This document shows, in pieces, positions 24,604-32,456 of a DNA stretch of 35,289 nt. Position numbers and translations under genes: made by a program. Location of the stretch: positions 1-35,289 of the forward strand of contig JAJFTE010000058.1 of NCBI GenBank assembly GCA_021373175.1, given 5' to 3'. Positions within the stretch are counted from its first letter, which is position 1. Each line of letters begins with the position of its first letter. A model generated the notes under the pieces. The model did no database searches, had not been told where the DNA came from, and was given only the letters and a program-made list of their open reading frames with translations. Source of the DNA: Actinomycetes bacterium (GTDB lineage: Bacteria; Actinomycetota; Coriobacteriia; Anaerosomatales; Anaerosomataceae).

Positions 24604-25496
24604 TCATCGACGGACGTACACGCCCCGCCGGTGTCGTCGGTTGGCCCATCGAACACACGCTGTCTCCGGCGATGCACAACGCGGCGTATGAGGAACTCGG
24701 GCTCAACTGGGTCTATCTGCCGTTCGCCGTGCCGGACCAGGGTGCACTCGTGCGTTTCGCCGATGCGGCCCGCGCGGTCTCGTTCGTCGGCTTCAACGTG
24801 ACCATGCCGTACAAGCGGGCGATCCTTGAGCTCTGCGACGAAGTCGCGATGCTCGCGCAGATGGCAGGTGCGGTGAACACCGTACATTGCTCGGAGGGTC
24901 GTCTCATCGGCTACAACACCGACAGCCGCGGACTGTTGGAGTCGCTCTCTGACGAAGCGGGTTTCTCGCTTGAGGGTAGGCGAATCGTGCTGCTTGGCGC
25001 CGGGGGCGCGGCCGGCGCGGCCGTTGCGGCATTCGTCTTGGGCAAGGCCGCTCACCTCACGATCGTGAATCGCGACGTGGAGCGTGCCGAGGGCCTGAAG
25101 GAGCGAGTCTCGCGGTATCTTCGCGGGATGGAGGTCGACACGACGTCCCCTGGCGATGGTGCCGAGGACGCCATCCACTCGGCGGATCTGGTCGTGAATG
25201 CGACGCCGCTCGGGATGAAGCCGGACGACGAGAGCCCGGTGCCCGTCGAGTGGCTGCGCGCCGGGCTCACGGTGTACGACATGGTGTACTCGGCGCGGCC
25301 GACCGCGCTGCTCAGAGGCGCCGAAGCTGCCGGTGCACACGCGCTCGGCGGTCTGGGGATGCTGGTCGCGCAGGGCGCGCTCGCAATCGACATCTGGTCC
25401 GAAAACGCGCAGTCCCGGGCGCCGCGTACGACGATGCGCGCGGCGGCCGAAGCGGCGATGCGCCGCAGCGAGGCCGAAGGAGGCGGCACCGTATGA
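24600..25496 (+). CDS. aroE: Shikimate dehydrogenase
   Basis: NADP-dependent reduction of 3-dehydroshikimate to shikimate in aromatic amino acid synthesis. The 298 residues carry HTLSPAMHN (19-27; the first Ser of the usual SLSP is Thr), NVTMPYK with the catalytic K72, NTDSRG with D108, and the Rossmann-type nucleotide site GAGGAAGAA. C-terminal AHALGGLGMLVAQGA is conserved. It overlaps pilB1 by the ATGA junction, so it may be cotranscribed with the pilus genes, which is common in this group and in some Firmicutes. Confidence 0.94.
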   Translation: MIIDGRTRPAGVVGWPIEHTLSPAMHNAAYEELGLNWVYLPFAVPDQGALVRFADAARAVSFVGFNVTMPYKRAILELCDEVAMLAQMAGAVNTVHCSEGRLIGYNTDSRGLLESLSDEAGFSLEGRRIVLLGAGGAAGAAVAAFVLGKAAHLTIVNRDVERAEGLKERVSRYLRGMEVDTTSPGDGAEDAIHSADLVVNATPLGMKPDDESPVPVEWLRAGLTVYDMVYSARPTALLRGAEAAGAHALGGLGMLVAQGALAIDIWSENAQSRAPRTTMRAAAEAAMRRSEAEGGGTV

Positions 25497-27169
25497 GCGC
25501 TGCTTCCGGGAAGCGCCTTGGCAGGGTCCTCGTCCAGTCAGGGCTCATAACGCAGGAGCAGATGGAGACGGCGGTCACCGAAGCGGGCGAGACCCGTTCG
25601 CTCACGACTGTCTTGATCGAGCAGGGCATCGCGAGCGACACCAAGATCGCTCAGGCTGTCGCCGAGAGCATGGGTCTCGCCTTTGTCGATCTGGCGGGCT
25701 ACGAGATCGACCCGAACGCTGCGATGCTCATCTCGGCCGAATTGGCGAAACGGCACAGCGTGCTTCCCATCAAGATCCAGGATGACGAACTTGTGGTGGC
25801 GATGGCGGACCCTGCCAACATCTTCGCCATCGACGACCTTCGCATCGTCACCGGGTATGAGATACGACCCATTGTCGCGACCGAGAGTGACGTCGAGGCC
25901 GCGATCGAGAAGTTCGCCACCATGAACCAGAACGTCGACCAGATGGTGGGCGACCTCGATGATACGTCGGCCGAGACGGAACGCGAGGCGGAGGAAGCGG
26001 CCGCCGATGAAGAAGCACCCGTCGTCAAGCTTATGAACCTCATCGTGAGCGAAGCTATCCGGCAGGGCGCCGGAGACATCTATGTGGAGCCCCAGGAAAC
26101 AGAGCTCAGGGTGCGATACCGCATCGACGGCGTGTGTCAGGAAGTCATGAGGAGTCCGATCAAACTCCACAGGCAGCTGCTGAGCCGCATCAAGATCGCC
26201 TCAGGCATGGATATCGCTGAGAAACGGGTTCCCCAGGACGGCCGTTTCGGCGTTGTGCTCGACGGCAAGACGGTCGACTTTCGCGTCGCTGTGCTGCCAG
26301 CCGTGAACGGCGAGATGTGTGTTATGCGTCTGCTCAGAAAAGACTCGATCATGCTTTCGCTTGAGGACCTTGGCTTTCTCGAAGAGCCGATCGGACGGTT
26401 GCTCGATGCGCTTGGCAGACCATACGGCTGCATTCTCGTCACCGGCCCGACCGGATCAGGCAAGTCGACCACGCTGTACGCGGCGATCAACAAGACGACG
26501 AGTCCAACGGTCAACCTGATCACGGTCGAGGACCCGGTCGAGTATCGGCTTGAGGGCCTATCACAGGTCCAGGTGAATGAAAGGGCGGGCCTCACCTTCG
26601 CTTCGGCGCTGCGCTCCATTCTGCGTCAAGACCCCGACGTTGTCATGATCGGTGAGATTCGCGATAAGGAGACTGCCAGCATCGCGATCGAAGCGGCGCT
26701 CACGGGGCACCTTGTGCTTTCGACGCTGCACACCAACGACGCCCCTTCCGCGCTCACCAGGCTGACCGAGATGGGCGTCGAGCCGTTTCTCTCGGCCTCG
26801 GCCATAAACTGTGTGCTTGCGCAGCGTCTCGGCCGCCGCCTGTGTCCCGAGTGCAAGGAGGCGTACACGCCCACGCCCGAAGCCCTCGACCGCGTCAGAT
26901 TCCCCTACGATCCGGAGCATCTCCCGACATTGTATCGGGCGGTCGGCTGCAAGCGATGCGGGGGTATCGGTTACAAGGGCCGAATGGGTTTTCACGAGGT
27001 CATGACTGTCAGCGAGGACATCGAGCGCGCGTGTGTGAACCACGCCTCCAGCGACGAGATCAAGCGCATGGCCCTAGCGGCTGGCATGCGCACGTTGCGT
27101 GATGACGGGTTCGCGAAAGCGCTCCTGGGCGTGACGTCGATCGAGGAGGTCCTGCGCGTCGTCGTGTGA
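25493..27169 (+). CDS. pilB: Type IV pilus assembly (extension) ATPase PilB, first copy
   Basis: A 558-residue secretion ATPase of the PilB/GspE family that powers pilin polymerisation. The start at ATG 25493 overlaps aroE; a longer open frame inside aroE is rejected. The N-terminal MshEN-like repeats (8-31 and 36-59) keep the Gly and hydrophobic positions but the motif-ending Gln is Ala31 and Ser59. The normally conserved DIHIEP is DIYVEP (195-200). Walker A GPTGSGKST is at 318-326, Walker B in DPDVVMIGEIRD, His box STLHTND, and the four zinc cysteines (CPECK, CKRCG) are present. It is therefore probably catalytically active but diverged from its paralogue at 30786. Confidence 0.94.
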   Translation: MSAASGKRLGRVLVQSGLITQEQMETAVTEAGETRSLTTVLIEQGIASDTKIAQAVAESMGLAFVDLAGYEIDPNAAMLISAELAKRHSVLPIKIQDDELVVAMADPANIFAIDDLRIVTGYEIRPIVATESDVEAAIEKFATMNQNVDQMVGDLDDTSAETEREAEEAAADEEAPVVKLMNLIVSEAIRQGAGDIYVEPQETELRVRYRIDGVCQEVMRSPIKLHRQLLSRIKIASGMDIAEKRVPQDGRFGVVLDGKTVDFRVAVLPAVNGEMCVMRLLRKDSIMLSLEDLGFLEEPIGRLLDALGRPYGCILVTGPTGSGKSTTLYAAINKTTSPTVNLITVEDPVEYRLEGLSQVQVNERAGLTFASALRSILRQDPDVVMIGEIRDKETASIAIEAALTGHLVLSTLHTNDAPSALTRLTEMGVEPFLSASAINCVLAQRLGRRLCPECKEAYTPTPEALDRVRFPYDPEHLPTLYRAVGCKRCGGIGYKGRMGFHEVMTVSEDIERACVNHASSDEIKRMALAAGMRTLRDDGFAKALLGVTSIEEVLRVVV

Positions 27170-27308: not shown

Positions 27309-27905
27309 ATGGTGGACAGGGGTATTGGGGATTACTTCATCTCAGACACTGACGATGACGTGCTCGACGATGAGCTGTTGACCGCTCCGGTGGTCGTCCC
27401 GCCCATAGTCTCGGCCCCGAGTGCGCCGTCCGTGCCGGCTGCTCCTGTGCACGCCCCGCAGCCGGTGCCCGCGCCGGTCGTTGCGCCCGGACCGGTAGCG
27501 TCGATTCCCGTGCGCCCCGAAGCGGCGCCACGGTCGCCTACCCGTGAGGAACGCCTGGCGGCGGCTCTCAACCTGCTGATGCGGGAGGATCCGGACATTG
27601 AGGCTGCCGCCCTGGTAAGTCTCGACGGCTTCACGATGGCCTCCGCGTTGCCGCCCGGCATGCAGGCTGATCGTGTCGGCGCTATGTCGGCAGCGATTCT
27701 CGGCCTCGGCGAGCGTGCGGCCGCCGAACTTGGCCGGGGGCATCTGTCGCAGGTCTTTATCGAGGGAGACACTGGTTACGTACTTCTTATGGCGGCCGGA
27801 GGTCGGGCGGTGCTGACCGTCATGGCCGACGCGAACGCGAAGCTCGGCCTCGTCATTTACGACATGCGCTCCGCTGCGAGCAGCATCGCCGAGATTCTCG
27901 GCTAG
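27309..27905 (+). CDS. Roadblock/LC7 domain protein (MglB-like)
   Basis: A 198-residue protein. The first 75 residues are acidic and then Pro/Ala/Val-rich and likely disordered. Residues about 78-198 form a roadblock/LC7 domain (LAAALNLLMREDPDIEAAALVSLDGFTMASALPP and GDTGYVLLMAAGGRAVLTVMA, each recognisable by pattern). Roadblock proteins such as MglB act as partners or GTPase-activating factors of MglA-type GTPases; one is encoded two genes downstream. The gene's GGGAG ribosome site (27294-27298) is ten bases before the ATG. It follows a structured leader that may control it. Confidence 0.85.
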   Translation: MVDRGIGDYFISDTDDDVLDDELLTAPVVVPPIVSAPSAPSVPAAPVHAPQPVPAPVVAPGPVASIPVRPEAAPRSPTREERLAAALNLLMREDPDIEAAALVSLDGFTMASALPPGMQADRVGAMSAAILGLGERAAAELGRGHLSQVFIEGDTGYVLLMAAGGRAVLTVMADANAKLGLVIYDMRSAASSIAEILG

Positions 27906-27943: not shown

Positions 27944-29647
27944 ATGGCATTACGCGGCAATCTCAAGGACTTCTCGCTACCCGATGTCTTCCAGCTCGTG
28001 CAGCTGAGCAAGAAGACGGGGGTTCTGCGCATCAGGAGTTCTGATGCTGAGGGCAGCATCTGGTTCCGCGAGGGCGATGTCTTCTTCGCCCAGTCGAACT
28101 GGCACCGCGATCCTCTCGGCCAGCGGCTTGTCACGACCGGGCGGATCACCCCGAGCGCGCTTGTCAAGGCGCTTGACATCCAGAGAAGCGAGCCCGTAGG
28201 GGGACGGCGCCTCGGGCAGATCCTGGTCGACGAGGGTTACCTGACCGGCAAGGTGCTCGAGACGTTCGTACAGGAGCAGATTCAGGACACTATCTTCGAC
28301 CTCATGCGCTGGGACGAGGGTGAGTTCGATTTCGAAGTGCTGCCCGAGGTCGCTGACGAGGACATCGGCCTGTCGGTGTCCGTCGAGAACATCGTCATGG
28401 AAGGGAGTCGTCGGCTGGACGAATGGAATCGCATCAAGAAGAAGGTTCCATCCATGGACATGGTCTTCAAGATGGCGACAGCTCCGGGTGAGGGTACGTT
28501 CGAGATATCGCTTAAGCCGAGCGAGTGGGCCGTACTACTTCTGATCGACGGAACGCGAACCGTCTTGCAGCTTGCCACCGAGATGAACAAGACCGATTTC
28601 GAAGTCGCCCGAATCATCTATGGCCTCTTCTCGGCAGGGCTGCTCGAGGTGCCATCGGATGATGAGGTCGAGCGGCTTCGCTCGGAGCGGTTGCGGCGTG
28701 AAGAGCGCCGCGCACGTCTTGAGGCCGAGCGACGTGCGCGCGACGAGGCTGCCGCGCTCGACGAGATCGCCCTTGCGACGCAGACCGCCGTGCAGGTCGA
28801 GGAACTCCAACGTGCCCAGGCGCCGACCTTCGAAGTCGAGGCGCACGCTGCGCCTGCGCAGGAGTCGTCAACTGAGAGTGAACCGCACGAGGAGCCGGAG
28901 TTCTTGTCGGTCAGCAAGACCAAGGCATCAGCGGAGGACATGGCCGTCTTCGCGGCGATGATGGAGGCTGTTCTTGACCACCCCGTGGAGACGCTCAAGG
29001 AACCCGAACCCGAACCCGAACCCGAACCCGAACCCGAACCCGAACCCGAGCCCGAGCCCGAGTCGGAGGCGTTCTTCGGTCCTCTGACTGCGGTTGAGGC
29101 GATCGAGATTCCCGCCCCGCCGATTGTCGAAGAGTTCGTCGAAGGCGATGCTATCGTCTCGGAGGGCTTCTCGGGCACGCTGATCACGGGCGACCTCGAG
29201 ACCGATCTGCGTGCGCTTGGACTGGGCGAGGTTCCCGTCGAGCTCGCTATAGAACCCGGCGTGCCCGCTTTCGATGAGGCTGTACGGCCTTCGGATCTTG
29301 AAGCGGCTGCCGAACCCGAGCTCATCACCGCGTCGTCAAACGACCTCGATGACCTGCTGCGCTCGCTCTCGCAAGACGATGAAGTCGAGTCATCGGAGAC
29401 GATCGAGTCCACGGGCGGGATCATCTCAACGGATGCGTATCTCGCAGAATTCGAGGGGGACTCGACGCTGAGGTATGGTCTCGGCGATGAGATCACGGCG
29501 CTGACGGGGGGTGGCGCTTCTCGCGCCCGCCCAGTTGCGACGGTCGGGCGGATTCCGGATTCTGACGAAAGCGTCGTACTGCGTCGGGACCAGCTCGTCG
29601 ATCGCGACCTGCTCATACAGATCATCGAAGGCATCGAGAAGCTCTAA
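27944..29647 (+). CDS. DUF4388 (PatA-like) protein with tandem MshEN-type motifs and EP repeat
   Basis: A 567-residue cytoplasmic protein. The N-terminal DUF4388 domain (about 1-115) contains two 24-residue motifs like those that bind c-di-GMP in MshEN domains: 57-80 (P57 L58 G59, G66, L73, L77, Q80) and 89-112 (R89 L90 G91, G98, L105, Q112). A second helical/winged-helix-like domain (about 165-240) follows, then a charged coiled coil (about 240-285), an acidic linker with about ten Glu-Pro repeats (353-373) and an acidic C-terminal region. DUF4388 proteins are linked to gliding, polarity and pilus control. No enzyme motif is seen; binding of c-di-GMP is inferred. It lies between a roadblock protein and a GTPase. 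Confidence 0.8.
   Translation: MALRGNLKDFSLPDVFQLVQLSKKTGVLRIRSSDAEGSIWFREGDVFFAQSNWHRDPLGQRLVTTGRITPSALVKALDIQRSEPVGGRRLGQILVDEGYLTGKVLETFVQEQIQDTIFDLMRWDEGEFDFEVLPEVADEDIGLSVSVENIVMEGSRRLDEWNRIKKKVPSMDMVFKMATAPGEGTFEISLKPSEWAVLLLIDGTRTVLQLATEMNKTDFEVARIIYGLFSAGLLEVPSDDEVERLRSERLRREERRARLEAERRARDEAAALDEIALATQTAVQVEELQRAQAPTFEVEAHAAPAQESSTESEPHEEPEFLSVSKTKASAEDMAVFAAMMEAVLDHPVETLKEPEPEPEPEPEPEPEPEPEPESEAFFGPLTAVEAIEIPAPPIVEEFVEGDAIVSEGFSGTLITGDLETDLRALGLGEVPVELAIEPGVPAFDEAVRPSDLEAAAEPELITASSNDLDDLLRSLSQDDEVESSETIESTGGIISTDAYLAEFEGDSTLRYGLGDEITALTGGGASRARPVATVGRIPDSDESVVLRRDQLVDRDLLIQIIEGIEKL
29000..29062 (+). repeat. In-frame hexanucleotide repeat (Glu-Pro tract)
   Basis: About eight uninterrupted copies of AACCCG followed by two AGCCCG variants encode a Glu-Pro run inside the DUF4388 gene. 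Loss or gain of whole hexamers would keep the frame and change linker length only. Confidence 0.9.
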
Positions 29648-29663
29648 GAACGGAGTCCGAGGC

Positions 29664-30191
29664 ATGCAGTCAGTGAAAGTCGTCATCACAGGGCCGTTCA
29701 ACGCGGGAAAGACGACCTTCATAAAGTCGGTGAGCGAGATCACCGTTCTGTCCACCGAGCGCCAAGTAAGCGACGCGTCGGGTGAGGGTGGCGCAGAGAC
29801 CACGGTTGCGATGGACTTCGGGCGGATAACGATCTCCGACGACGTCGTGCTGTATCTTTTCGGCACGCCTGGGCAGGAGCGGTTCTCGTTCATGTGGGAG
29901 ACGCTTTCGGAAGGGATGCTCGGATTCGTCTTGCTTGTCGACGCGCGAAGCCAGGAATCCATCCGCGATGCTGCCTCCATGATCGAGTTCTTCACAGGCA
30001 TGTCCGATGTGCCGTTCGTGGTCGCCGCTAACAAGGTCGATCCGAACGACTCGCAGACGCTTTCCGCCGTGCGCAGCAGCCTTGCGCTCGCCGACGATGT
30101 GCCGCTGCTCGCGTGCAACGCACAAGAGAAGGACAGCGTGAAGTCCGTCCTCCTCGGTCTGCTGTATAGCATTCTCGACAGCATGAGATGA
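29664..30191 (+). CDS. MglA-like / COG2229-type small GTPase
   Basis: A 175-residue Ras-like GTPase. The P-loop is GPFNAGKTT (10-18), the G3 region is FGTPGQERF (66-74) with the MglA/COG2229-type TPGQ in place of DxxG, and G4 is NKVD (123-126). COG2229 GTPases are found in actinobacterial conservons beside roadblock proteins, and MglA sets polarity for type IV pili in Myxococcus. The ATG at 29664 is chosen because GGAG (29652-29655) precedes it and the family N-terminus starts there; the longer frame lies in the previous gene. It overlaps the next gene by four bases. Confidence 0.88.
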   Translation: MQSVKVVITGPFNAGKTTFIKSVSEITVLSTERQVSDASGEGGAETTVAMDFGRITISDDVVLYLFGTPGQERFSFMWETLSEGMLGFVLLVDARSQESIRDAASMIEFFTGMSDVPFVVAANKVDPNDSQTLSAVRSSLALADDVPLLACNAQEKDSVKSVLLGLLYSILDSMR

Positions 30192-30785: not shown

Positions 30786-32456
30786 GTGGCGGAGGCAGGT
30801 GAGCGCTTAGGACAGCTGCTGCAGCGCGCCGGTGTCATCACCGAGCGGCAGCTGAACGACGCCCTGGAAGTGCACAAAGCGACGGCAAGTCCAATCGGCC
30901 GCGTTCTGGTCGATTTTGGCTACGCCACACAGGGAGCCATCCTGGCCGTCATGGCGCGCCAGATCGGCATACCATACGTCGATTTCGCCGAGAAGAAACC
31001 AGACCCCAGCGCGATAGCCATCGTCCCTCGGGACCTCGCATCCCGCTACGCGCTGATGCCCGTCGAGTTCGATGAAGAGAACCATCTCATCGTGGCCATG
31101 GCAGACCCGCAGAACGTCCTCGCGCTCGACGATCTTCGCATCATCACGGGGTATGAGATCAGACCCGCGATCTCGACCAAGGACGACATCCTTGCCGCTA
31201 TCGAGGACTACTACCGAGTGGCCGCGCACGTGGACACCGGCTTCCTCGACGGCACCGAGGTTGGAAACCTCGATCTCGAATCCCTCACCGAGGTCTCCGA
31301 CGAGGCGCCGATCGTCAAGCTCGTCAACTACATCATTAATAAGGCGGTCAGCGATCGTGCCTCCGACATTCACATCGAACCGCAAGAGAAGGACCTTCGC
31401 GTGCGGTACCGCGTTGACGGCGTGCTCCATGAGGTGATGCGGAGTCCGAAAGCCACCCAGCAGGCGATCATCAGCCGCTTCAAGATCATGGCCGACATGG
31501 ACATCGCCGAGAACCGAAAGCCTCAGGACGGCCACACCTCGATCACCGTGGCGGGCCACAAGATGGACTTGCGCGTGTCGACACTGCCCACTGTTTACGG
31601 CGAGCGCGTCGTCCTTCGTATCTTGCGCAAAGACAACATCATGCTGCGCCTGGAGGATCTCGGCTTCCTGCCCTTTGCCCTCGAGCGATTCGAGTCAGCG
31701 TTCCGCAAGCCGTACGGGACCATCCTGGTAACGGGTCCCACCGGTTCCGGGAAGTCCACAACCCTGTACGGTGCGGTAAACGTGCTCAACGATCCTGCCA
31801 AGCACATCCTCACCGCCGAGGACCCGGTGGAGTATCACCTGCCCGGCGTCAATCAGATTCAGACGAACGTCAGAGCCGGGCTCACGTTCGCACGCGCGCT
31901 TCGGTCGTTCCTCCGCTGCTCGCCGGATATCATCCTCGTCGGCGAGATCCGCGACGAGGAGACCGCGAAGATCGCCATCGAATCCGCGCTAACCGGTCAC
32001 CTGGTGCTTTCGACCCTGCACACCAATGATGCCGCGGGGGCGGTCACGCGACTCACTGAGATGGGTGTGGAACCGTTCCTTGTCGCCTCGGCGGTGGACT
32101 GCGTGCTGGCCCAGCGCCTGGCGCGACGGTTGTGCCCCGAGTGCAAGGAAGAATACCTGCCGCAGAAGCAGGCTCTCCTGGATGCAGGCTATCCTGCCGA
32201 CAATCTACCGGAGAAGCTCTTCCGGCCCGTCGGATGCAAGAAGTGTGGAGGAACCGGCTATCGGGGCCGGATGGGACTGCACGAGGTCATGCTCTTAAGT
32301 GAGGAGATCGGCGTTCTTACCGTGAAAGAGGCAACCTCCGAGGAGATCAAACAGGTCGCTATCGCGCAGGGCATGCTTACCCTCAAACAGGATGGGCTGG
32401 AGAAGGTTCGCATGGGCACTACCTCGATCGAGGAGATCATGAGGGTTGTCGCGTAA
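30786..32456 (+). CDS. pilB: Type IV pilus assembly ATPase PilB, second copy
   Basis: A 556-residue PilB/GspE-type ATPase and paralogue of the one at 25493. The N-terminal MshEN-like repeats are well kept: R7 L8 G9 to H30 and P36 I37 G38 to Q59, so c-di-GMP binding is plausible for this copy, though the first motif ends in His rather than Gln. The normal SDIHIEP is present (H196), Walker A GPTGSGKST is at 317-325, Walker B in SPDIILVGEIRD, STLHTND follows, and the zinc cysteines CPECK and CKKCG are intact. GTG start with GAGGGAG (30771-30777) eight bases upstream. It begins the conserved pilB-pilT-pilC run. Confidence 0.96.
   Translation: MAEAGERLGQLLQRAGVITERQLNDALEVHKATASPIGRVLVDFGYATQGAILAVMARQIGIPYVDFAEKKPDPSAIAIVPRDLASRYALMPVEFDEENHLIVAMADPQNVLALDDLRIITGYEIRPAISTKDDILAAIEDYYRVAAHVDTGFLDGTEVGNLDLESLTEVSDEAPIVKLVNYIINKAVSDRASDIHIEPQEKDLRVRYRVDGVLHEVMRSPKATQQAIISRFKIMADMDIAENRKPQDGHTSITVAGHKMDLRVSTLPTVYGERVVLRILRKDNIMLRLEDLGFLPFALERFESAFRKPYGTILVTGPTGSGKSTTLYGAVNVLNDPAKHILTAEDPVEYHLPGVNQIQTNVRAGLTFARALRSFLRCSPDIILVGEIRDEETAKIAIESALTGHLVLSTLHTNDAAGAVTRLTEMGVEPFLVASAVDCVLAQRLARRLCPECKEEYLPQKQALLDAGYPADNLPEKLFRPVGCKKCGGTGYRGRMGLHEVMLLSEEIGVLTVKEATSEEIKQVAIAQGMLTLKQDGLEKVRMGTTSIEEIMRVVA

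Follow-up and report, generated by a model that had tools for sequence, protein, structure and literature searches.

An MshEN_N-like helical module in the DUF4388 domain of a putative type IV pilus regulator

The window analysed here, which is the whole stretch of 35,289 nucleotides, contains a type IV pilus locus in which a DUF4388 protein is encoded between two pilB genes. This raises the question whether the DUF4388 protein carries a c-di-GMP-binding module of the type known from the ATPase MshE, and whether such a module might act on a pilus motor. All features described below are on the forward strand.

The protein (27944..29647, 567 aa) consists of a DUF4388 domain with a helical insertion, a winged-helix-like domain, a long acidic low-complexity linker and a conserved C-terminal tail. 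The DUF4388 domain, which we take to be identical with PATAN, covers residues 4-162 (27953..28429). It was also found in the genome search, and its match to PF14332 (E=6.4e-36) reaches 123.5 bits against a Pfam gathering cut-off of 25, which establishes membership in this family. When domains were searched in the complete protein, a receiver domain as in the PATAN-REC response regulators was not matched. The winged-helix-like domain (residues 163-238, 28430..28657) was assigned from predicted helices and from VIA, which matches it with winged-helix chains at Z-scores of up to 9.4. Subunits of the KICSTOR/SEA complex and RRE/PqqD-type domains are among these matches.

Tandem motifs within the DUF4388 domain

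According to the original prediction, residues 57-80 and 89-112 represent two consecutive copies of the 24-residue MshEN pattern, and all positions that had been named are indeed found in the sequence, including the RLG start and the terminal Q112 of the second copy. Motif I (PLGQRLVTTGRITPSALVKALDIQ, 28112..28183) and motif II (RLGQILVDEGYLTGKVLETFVQEQ, 28208..28279) are separated by the 8-residue spacer RSEPVGGR (28184..28207), which was delimited from the sequence and by comparison with relatives; the corresponding spacer of MshEN has 5 residues. Position 24 is Gln in both copies. The tandem pattern RLGxxhhxxGhhxxxxLxxxLxxQ is present with two deviations, both in motif I: position 1 is Pro57 where the consensus has Arg, and position 11, which had not been commented on before, is occupied by Arg67 instead of the hydrophobic residue of MshEN. 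Motif II but not motif I fits the relaxed motif of Wang 2016, which has a hydrophobic residue at position 11 of both copies. This discrepancy concerns the strict definition of the c-di-GMP motif and leaves homology untouched. The tandem-motif score is 20 of 22 and was not reached by any of 1000 shuffles of the protein, the best of which scored 18.

The NCBIfam model NF053729 ('c-di-GMP_motif, MshE-related') aligns with all of its positions 1-53 to residues 57-112 and scores 44.7 bits (E=8e-12), the curated cut-off being 38 bits. In a genome-wide search with this model, the place found in the DUF4388 protein is exactly 28112-28279. The Pfam model for MshEN, PF05157, matched neither the DUF4388 protein nor isolated pieces of 53-56 residues from it. 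In PilB1 and PilB2, matches to PF05157 begin near residue 61, past the motifs, and thus the model describes the C-terminal subdomain and is no test for the motif. Such an alpha/beta subdomain (MshEN_C) does not follow the bundle in the DUF4388 protein, where helix 4 is predicted to continue into the DUF4388 fold. In many family genomes (e.g. G008:C1:754272-754751), the second DUF4388 gene could be matched to the Pfam DUF4388 profile solely in two pieces (1-72, 49-121). This suggests that a single motif copy is built into that profile and that the two-motif insertion is not represented in it.

Homology and predicted fold of the insertion

NF053729 matches all 55 aligned relatives of the protein at E<=0.01. 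A PDB search with a profile of 21 relatives retrieved PilF (1.4e-8), MshE (1.7e-7) and PilB (6e-7), each aligned at the motif stretch, and a profile-profile comparison of the DUF4388 insertion with the N-terminus of PilB2 gave a probability of 98.6% (E=5e-16). In an AlphaFold2 model made from 55 relatives (mean pLDDT 90.5), the helices 58-64 and 70-82 of motif I and 90-96 and 102-121 of motif II sit between strands 45-50 and 127-132.

Overlay of a predicted structure with the MshE N-domain had been suggested as a check, and a fold in which the two motifs do not share a site would have spoken against the idea. At the level of prediction, such a fold was not obtained: the model unites both motifs in one site of a four-helix bundle, and both are covered by a single VIA superposition, in which 58 residues from the range 55-115 fit MshE with bound c-di-GMP (5HTL) to 1.4 A, with 36% identity. 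The model also superimposes on several GSPII-B/c-di-GMP structures of PilF at 1.5-1.9 A. Given the small size of the domain, the Z-scores are modest (5.6-6.5), and they were weighed jointly with the sequence evidence. In a Foldseek search with the whole 238-residue model, MshE is not among the first 50 matches, as these are filled by the winged-helix part and by long spurious alignments. Folding the insertion alone remedied this: MshE is then PDB rank 1 with a TM-score of 0.71 (query length), and ranks 1-15 of 18 are MshEN, GSPII or PilB-N chains. The VIA comparison of the lone insertion with 5HTL has a Z-score of 9.6 but 5.4 A, since the alignment extends into the C-subdomain of MshE.

Based on the profile comparisons and the predicted fold, residues 57-112 are almost certainly a true four-helix module of the MshEN_N type (GSPII N-subdomain) that forms an insertion in the DUF4388/PATAN fold. 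A chance or convergent pair of helical hairpins, which might be considered because the pattern is short and hydrophobic and is also weakly matched by C-terminal hairpins of fumarase, is highly improbable and was rejected, as it is contradicted by the shuffles, by the E-values (1e-12 to 1e-7 for profiles, 5e-16 for profile-profile) and by a predicted fold that fits over the 58 superimposed residues.

Among the DUF4388 relatives compared across the phylum, those closest to the window protein have both motifs in good form, and the spacer between them is mostly 5-10 residues long (exactly 5 in L162-L165 and L205). Both motifs are perfect in relative L184. Other relatives have degenerate motifs, and in three short ones no insertion was discerned. 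As the module may be intact, degenerate or absent, the DUF4388 core can stand without it, and decay of the module at its site is possible, just as in the ATPases.

Gene neighbourhood and c-di-GMP context

The DUF4388 gene is preceded by the genes for PilB1 (25490..27169; PF00437, 454 bits) and for a roadblock/LC7 protein, an MglB-like candidate GTPase regulator (27309..27905; PF03259, E=2e-16). It is followed by the genes for an MglA-like, Ras-like small GTPase (29664..30191; PF00071, E=7e-10; TIGR00231 above cut-off) and for the extension ATPase PilB2 (30786..32456; PF00437, 461 bits). Synteny agrees with the assignment of the roadblock protein and of the GTPase. The longest ORF for the small GTPase (29511-30191) begins within the DUF4388 gene, and the ATG at 29664 is the likely start. 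Gene order is conserved among the family's pilus-type loci that lie on a long enough stretch: PilB1 comes first, then roadblock, DUF4388, the Ras-like GTPase, a small membrane protein, PilB2 and PilT/PilC. In a few of these loci the small membrane protein was undetected. L143 and L144, two distant loci, still have the DUF4388 and GTPase genes together.

PilB1 and PilB2, the extension ATPases of the operon, differ in their motifs. PilB1 has MshEN motifs at 25514-25666 (NF053729, 41.4 bits), but the second copy is degenerate and has lost its LG, which holds family-wide. That the same type of motif begins PilB2, as had been noticed, is borne out by the NF053729 match at 30804-30962 (53.3 bits), where a conserved RLG...H24 is followed by PLG...Q24. 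LG is thus present in both copies; the first one ends with His rather than Gln, and this His is near-invariant in the family. The further suggestion that a common c-di-GMP signal might reach regulator and motor fits PilB2 with LG in its two motifs, but it does not fit PilB1 with its second motif devoid of LG.

The source genome encodes a second DUF4388 protein (L002, G000:C43:25337-25816), at a distance of about 3 kb from the gene for a diverged secretion ATPase. This paralogue is present in most family genomes, and its pairing with the diverged ATPase is seen in most paralogue loci. The spacer between its MshEN motifs is the basic 10-residue sequence KIQKKEKADR. NF053729 scores above cut-off at five places of the source genome, in three ATPases and in the two DUF4388 proteins, and a sixth, sub-threshold place is in the diverged ATPase. 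GGDEF enzymes are encoded in all 27 family genomes, while a PilZ match was found in none of the 27. The presence of GGDEF, the absence of PilZ and the conserved synteny agree with a c-di-GMP reading.

In a sample of 296 genomes from the phylum, DUF4388 occurs in 87, and a GGDEF match is found in each of these 87, while 25 genomes lack GGDEF (hypergeometric 1e-4). Five of these 25 are not given by name; the 87 genomes with DUF4388 are all listed as GGDEF-positive. The co-occurrence is confounded by common ancestry and gives weak support. Among plasmid records there is one distant match, from Thermomicrobium, which is annotated as DUF4388.

Ligand binding and alternative functions

In MshE, c-di-GMP is contacted by Arg1, Leu2, Gly3, Leu17, Leu21 and Gln24 of each motif (PMC5013675). 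Conservation of these positions was evaluated for the 55 relatives, which comprise a pilus-locus-type set of 35 sequences (two distant relatives included) and a paralogue group of 20 sequences. In motif II, Gly3, Leu17 and Gln24 are present in 55 of 55 relatives and Arg1 in 53; for the pilus-locus-type set alone the numbers are 35 of 35 and 33 of 35. Motif I of the latter set retains Gly3 (35 of 35), Leu2 (32), Leu17 (33) and Leu21 (34). Pro or Leu predominates at its position 1, 34 of the 35 sequences have Arg or Lys at position 11, and position 24 varies between Arg (17), Gln (14), His (3) and Ser (1). In the paralogue group, motif I has Ser1 and Gln24 in all 20 sequences, Val11 in 18 and Gly10 in 16. 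DUF4388 proteins typically have a basic residue at motif I position 5 (R61, with Arg in 53 of the 55 relatives), which is missing from nearly all ATPases examined.

Several of these deviations have counterparts in proteins that have been characterized. The GSPII-B domain of PilF binds c-di-GMP at 6 nM with Lys and Leu at motif position 1, so that Arg1 is dispensable, while a Gln-to-Glu exchange at position 24 reduces affinity about 80-fold, to about 500 nM (PMC11731258). MshEN_N alone is enough for binding in V. cholerae (PMC5013675). A broken helix 1 characterizes MshE (PMC5013675) as well as GSPII-B with bound ligand (PMC11731258), whereas the helix is extended in the non-binding GSPII-A domain of PilF (PMC12002112). 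In our AlphaFold2 model, Pro57 precedes helix 1, which does not begin before residue 58 and would thus resemble the broken, ligand-type helix and not the extended one of GSPII-A. A match to NF053729 does not by itself prove binding, since PilB1 passes the cut-off with a broken second motif. The relaxed motif I, with Pro1, Arg11 and an unconserved Gln24, the spacer longer by 3 residues and the lack of MshEN_C count against binding. On balance, the conserved contacts and the modelled bundle make c-di-GMP binding by the window protein plausible, and slightly more so than its absence.

We therefore regard an MshEN_N module in a cytoplasmic DUF4388 regulator, most likely acting as a c-di-GMP receptor, as the best explanation, to which we give a cautious preference. 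It builds on homology, conservation and gene order together with the predicted fold, and from these we infer ligand binding, the target, the direction of control and the effect on pilus extension. The two motifs would pack into one bundle, each holding one half of c-di-GMP. Binding of the messenger may alter the docking of the DUF4388 protein on the pilus machinery, probably on the neighbouring extension motor PilB2, while the roadblock protein and the Ras-like GTPase could provide a second input in the form of a nucleotide switch. The DUF4388 protein would then be a docking regulator of pilus extension that acts on PilB2, which has MshEN motifs of its own. Coupling to PilB2, suggested by the gene neighbourhood, is a tentative assignment.

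The main alternative, a serious possibility that we nevertheless hold to be rather doubtful, is that the module, although it shares its ancestry with the N-domain of the ATPases, is today a ligand-free surface of MshEN fold for protein-protein docking and that c-di-GMP is not involved. It might, for example, mimic the N-domain of PilB and compete with it for a common partner, or bind PilB itself. Relaxed motif I contacts in the pilus-locus orthologues, with the fold residues kept, would suit such a function, but motif II has an invariant Gly3 and Gln24 and a nearly invariant Arg1, and these are ligand contacts in MshE that are lost in the non-binding XpsE. Degenerate motifs are found at the same place in other DUF4388 relatives and in PilB1 of the same operon; against this stand the two perfect motifs of L184, the family paralogue, which retains a hydrophobic position 11, Gln24 and mostly Gly10 in motif I, and the 27 family genomes devoid of a PilZ-domain receptor. 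Precedents for docking exist. PilF GSPII-A has a near-consensus motif I, yet does not bind c-di-GMP and has been proposed to be a landing pad (PMC12002112). XpsE, for which a list of several changes includes Arg at position 11, is another non-binder (PMC5013675). PATAN proteins of Synechocystis act by binding PilB1, and PixG also binds PilC (PMC12288463).

As a special case of the docking alternative, only the paralogous DUF4388 protein and PilB2 might bind c-di-GMP, and the window protein, its binding lost, would serve the Ras-like GTPase as an effector or connect it with PilB2 as a scaffold. We consider this unlikely. The paralogue (L002 type) has the cleaner motif I, but the window protein keeps Gln24 in both motifs and scores higher in the NF053729 genome search (49.2 versus 41.8 bits). 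A role next to the GTPase would be in line with the conserved triad of roadblock, DUF4388 and GTPase genes, the last two of which stay adjacent even in the distant loci, and with the documented association of MglA/MglB homologues, among them MglA-like genes, with nearby PATAN genes (PMC4316618).

Returning to the receptor reading, comparison with known systems shows which features are shared. The module resembles MshEN_N of Vibrio cholerae MshE (5HTL) in its two 24-residue motifs and predicted four-helix bundle, but is located inside a DUF4388 domain instead of at the N-terminus of an ATPase and differs in its spacer (8 versus 5), in Pro1 and Arg11 of motif I and in the lack of MshEN_C. With GSPII-B of Thermus thermophilus PilF (8PDK and others) it shares the predicted fold (1.5-1.7 A over 57 residues) and the lack of Arg at motif position 1 (position 1 of motif I here), whereas GSPII-B has Lys/Leu there, an ATPase context and its own C-terminal subdomain. 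The DUF4388 domain and the link to type IV pili/PilB are common with PATAN regulators (PatA, PixG, PixE, LsiR); the window protein differs from these in having, in place of a receiver domain, a winged-helix-like domain, an acidic linker and a conserved tail. As for MglA-MglB of Myxococcus xanthus type IV pili, roadblock and Ras-like GTPase genes are found beside a PATAN-type gene, but the set described here, known from its genes, is flanked by two pilB genes within the pil operon.

What may be new is the identification of the insertion of DUF4388 proteins as an MshEN_N module, while the NCBI model already detects the motif. The 2006 PATAN paper reportedly regards the insertion as a helical motif in its own right, which is found elsewhere, too. 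An alpha-helical insertion of PATAN is named in the title of that paper (Makarova 2006, as cited in PMC11580455). MshEN domains fused to regulators are generally known (PMC5013675), and the function of the PATAN domain has been called undetermined (PMC7380572). In the accessible parts of the literature on PATAN and MshEN we found no equating of the two domains; earlier recognition in the 2006 PATAN paper or in the MshEN supplement is possible. The MshEN_N identity provides a direct ligand hypothesis for the PATAN/DUF4388 regulators of pilus motors. Should it be correct, lineages that make the messenger without PilZ proteins would have c-di-GMP receptors, and c-di-GMP and a small GTPase would converge on one regulator of type IV pili. 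It is conceivable, though we would not yet call it probable, that DUF4388/PATAN proteins, as regulators that bind pilus motors, form a widespread class of c-di-GMP receptors by virtue of the MshEN_N insertion, and that in the PilZ-less lineage of the window they join c-di-GMP to a Ras-like GTPase switch in order to gate PilB2, which may itself read c-di-GMP.

The remainder of the protein shows two further features. The linker contains a run of EP dipeptide repeats (28998-29060), and protein length differs among relatives. Beyond this long, variable acidic linker, the conserved end of the protein has the sequence VDRDLLxxIIEGIEKL (29597-29644), which is possibly a docking helix for the GTPase or for the motor.
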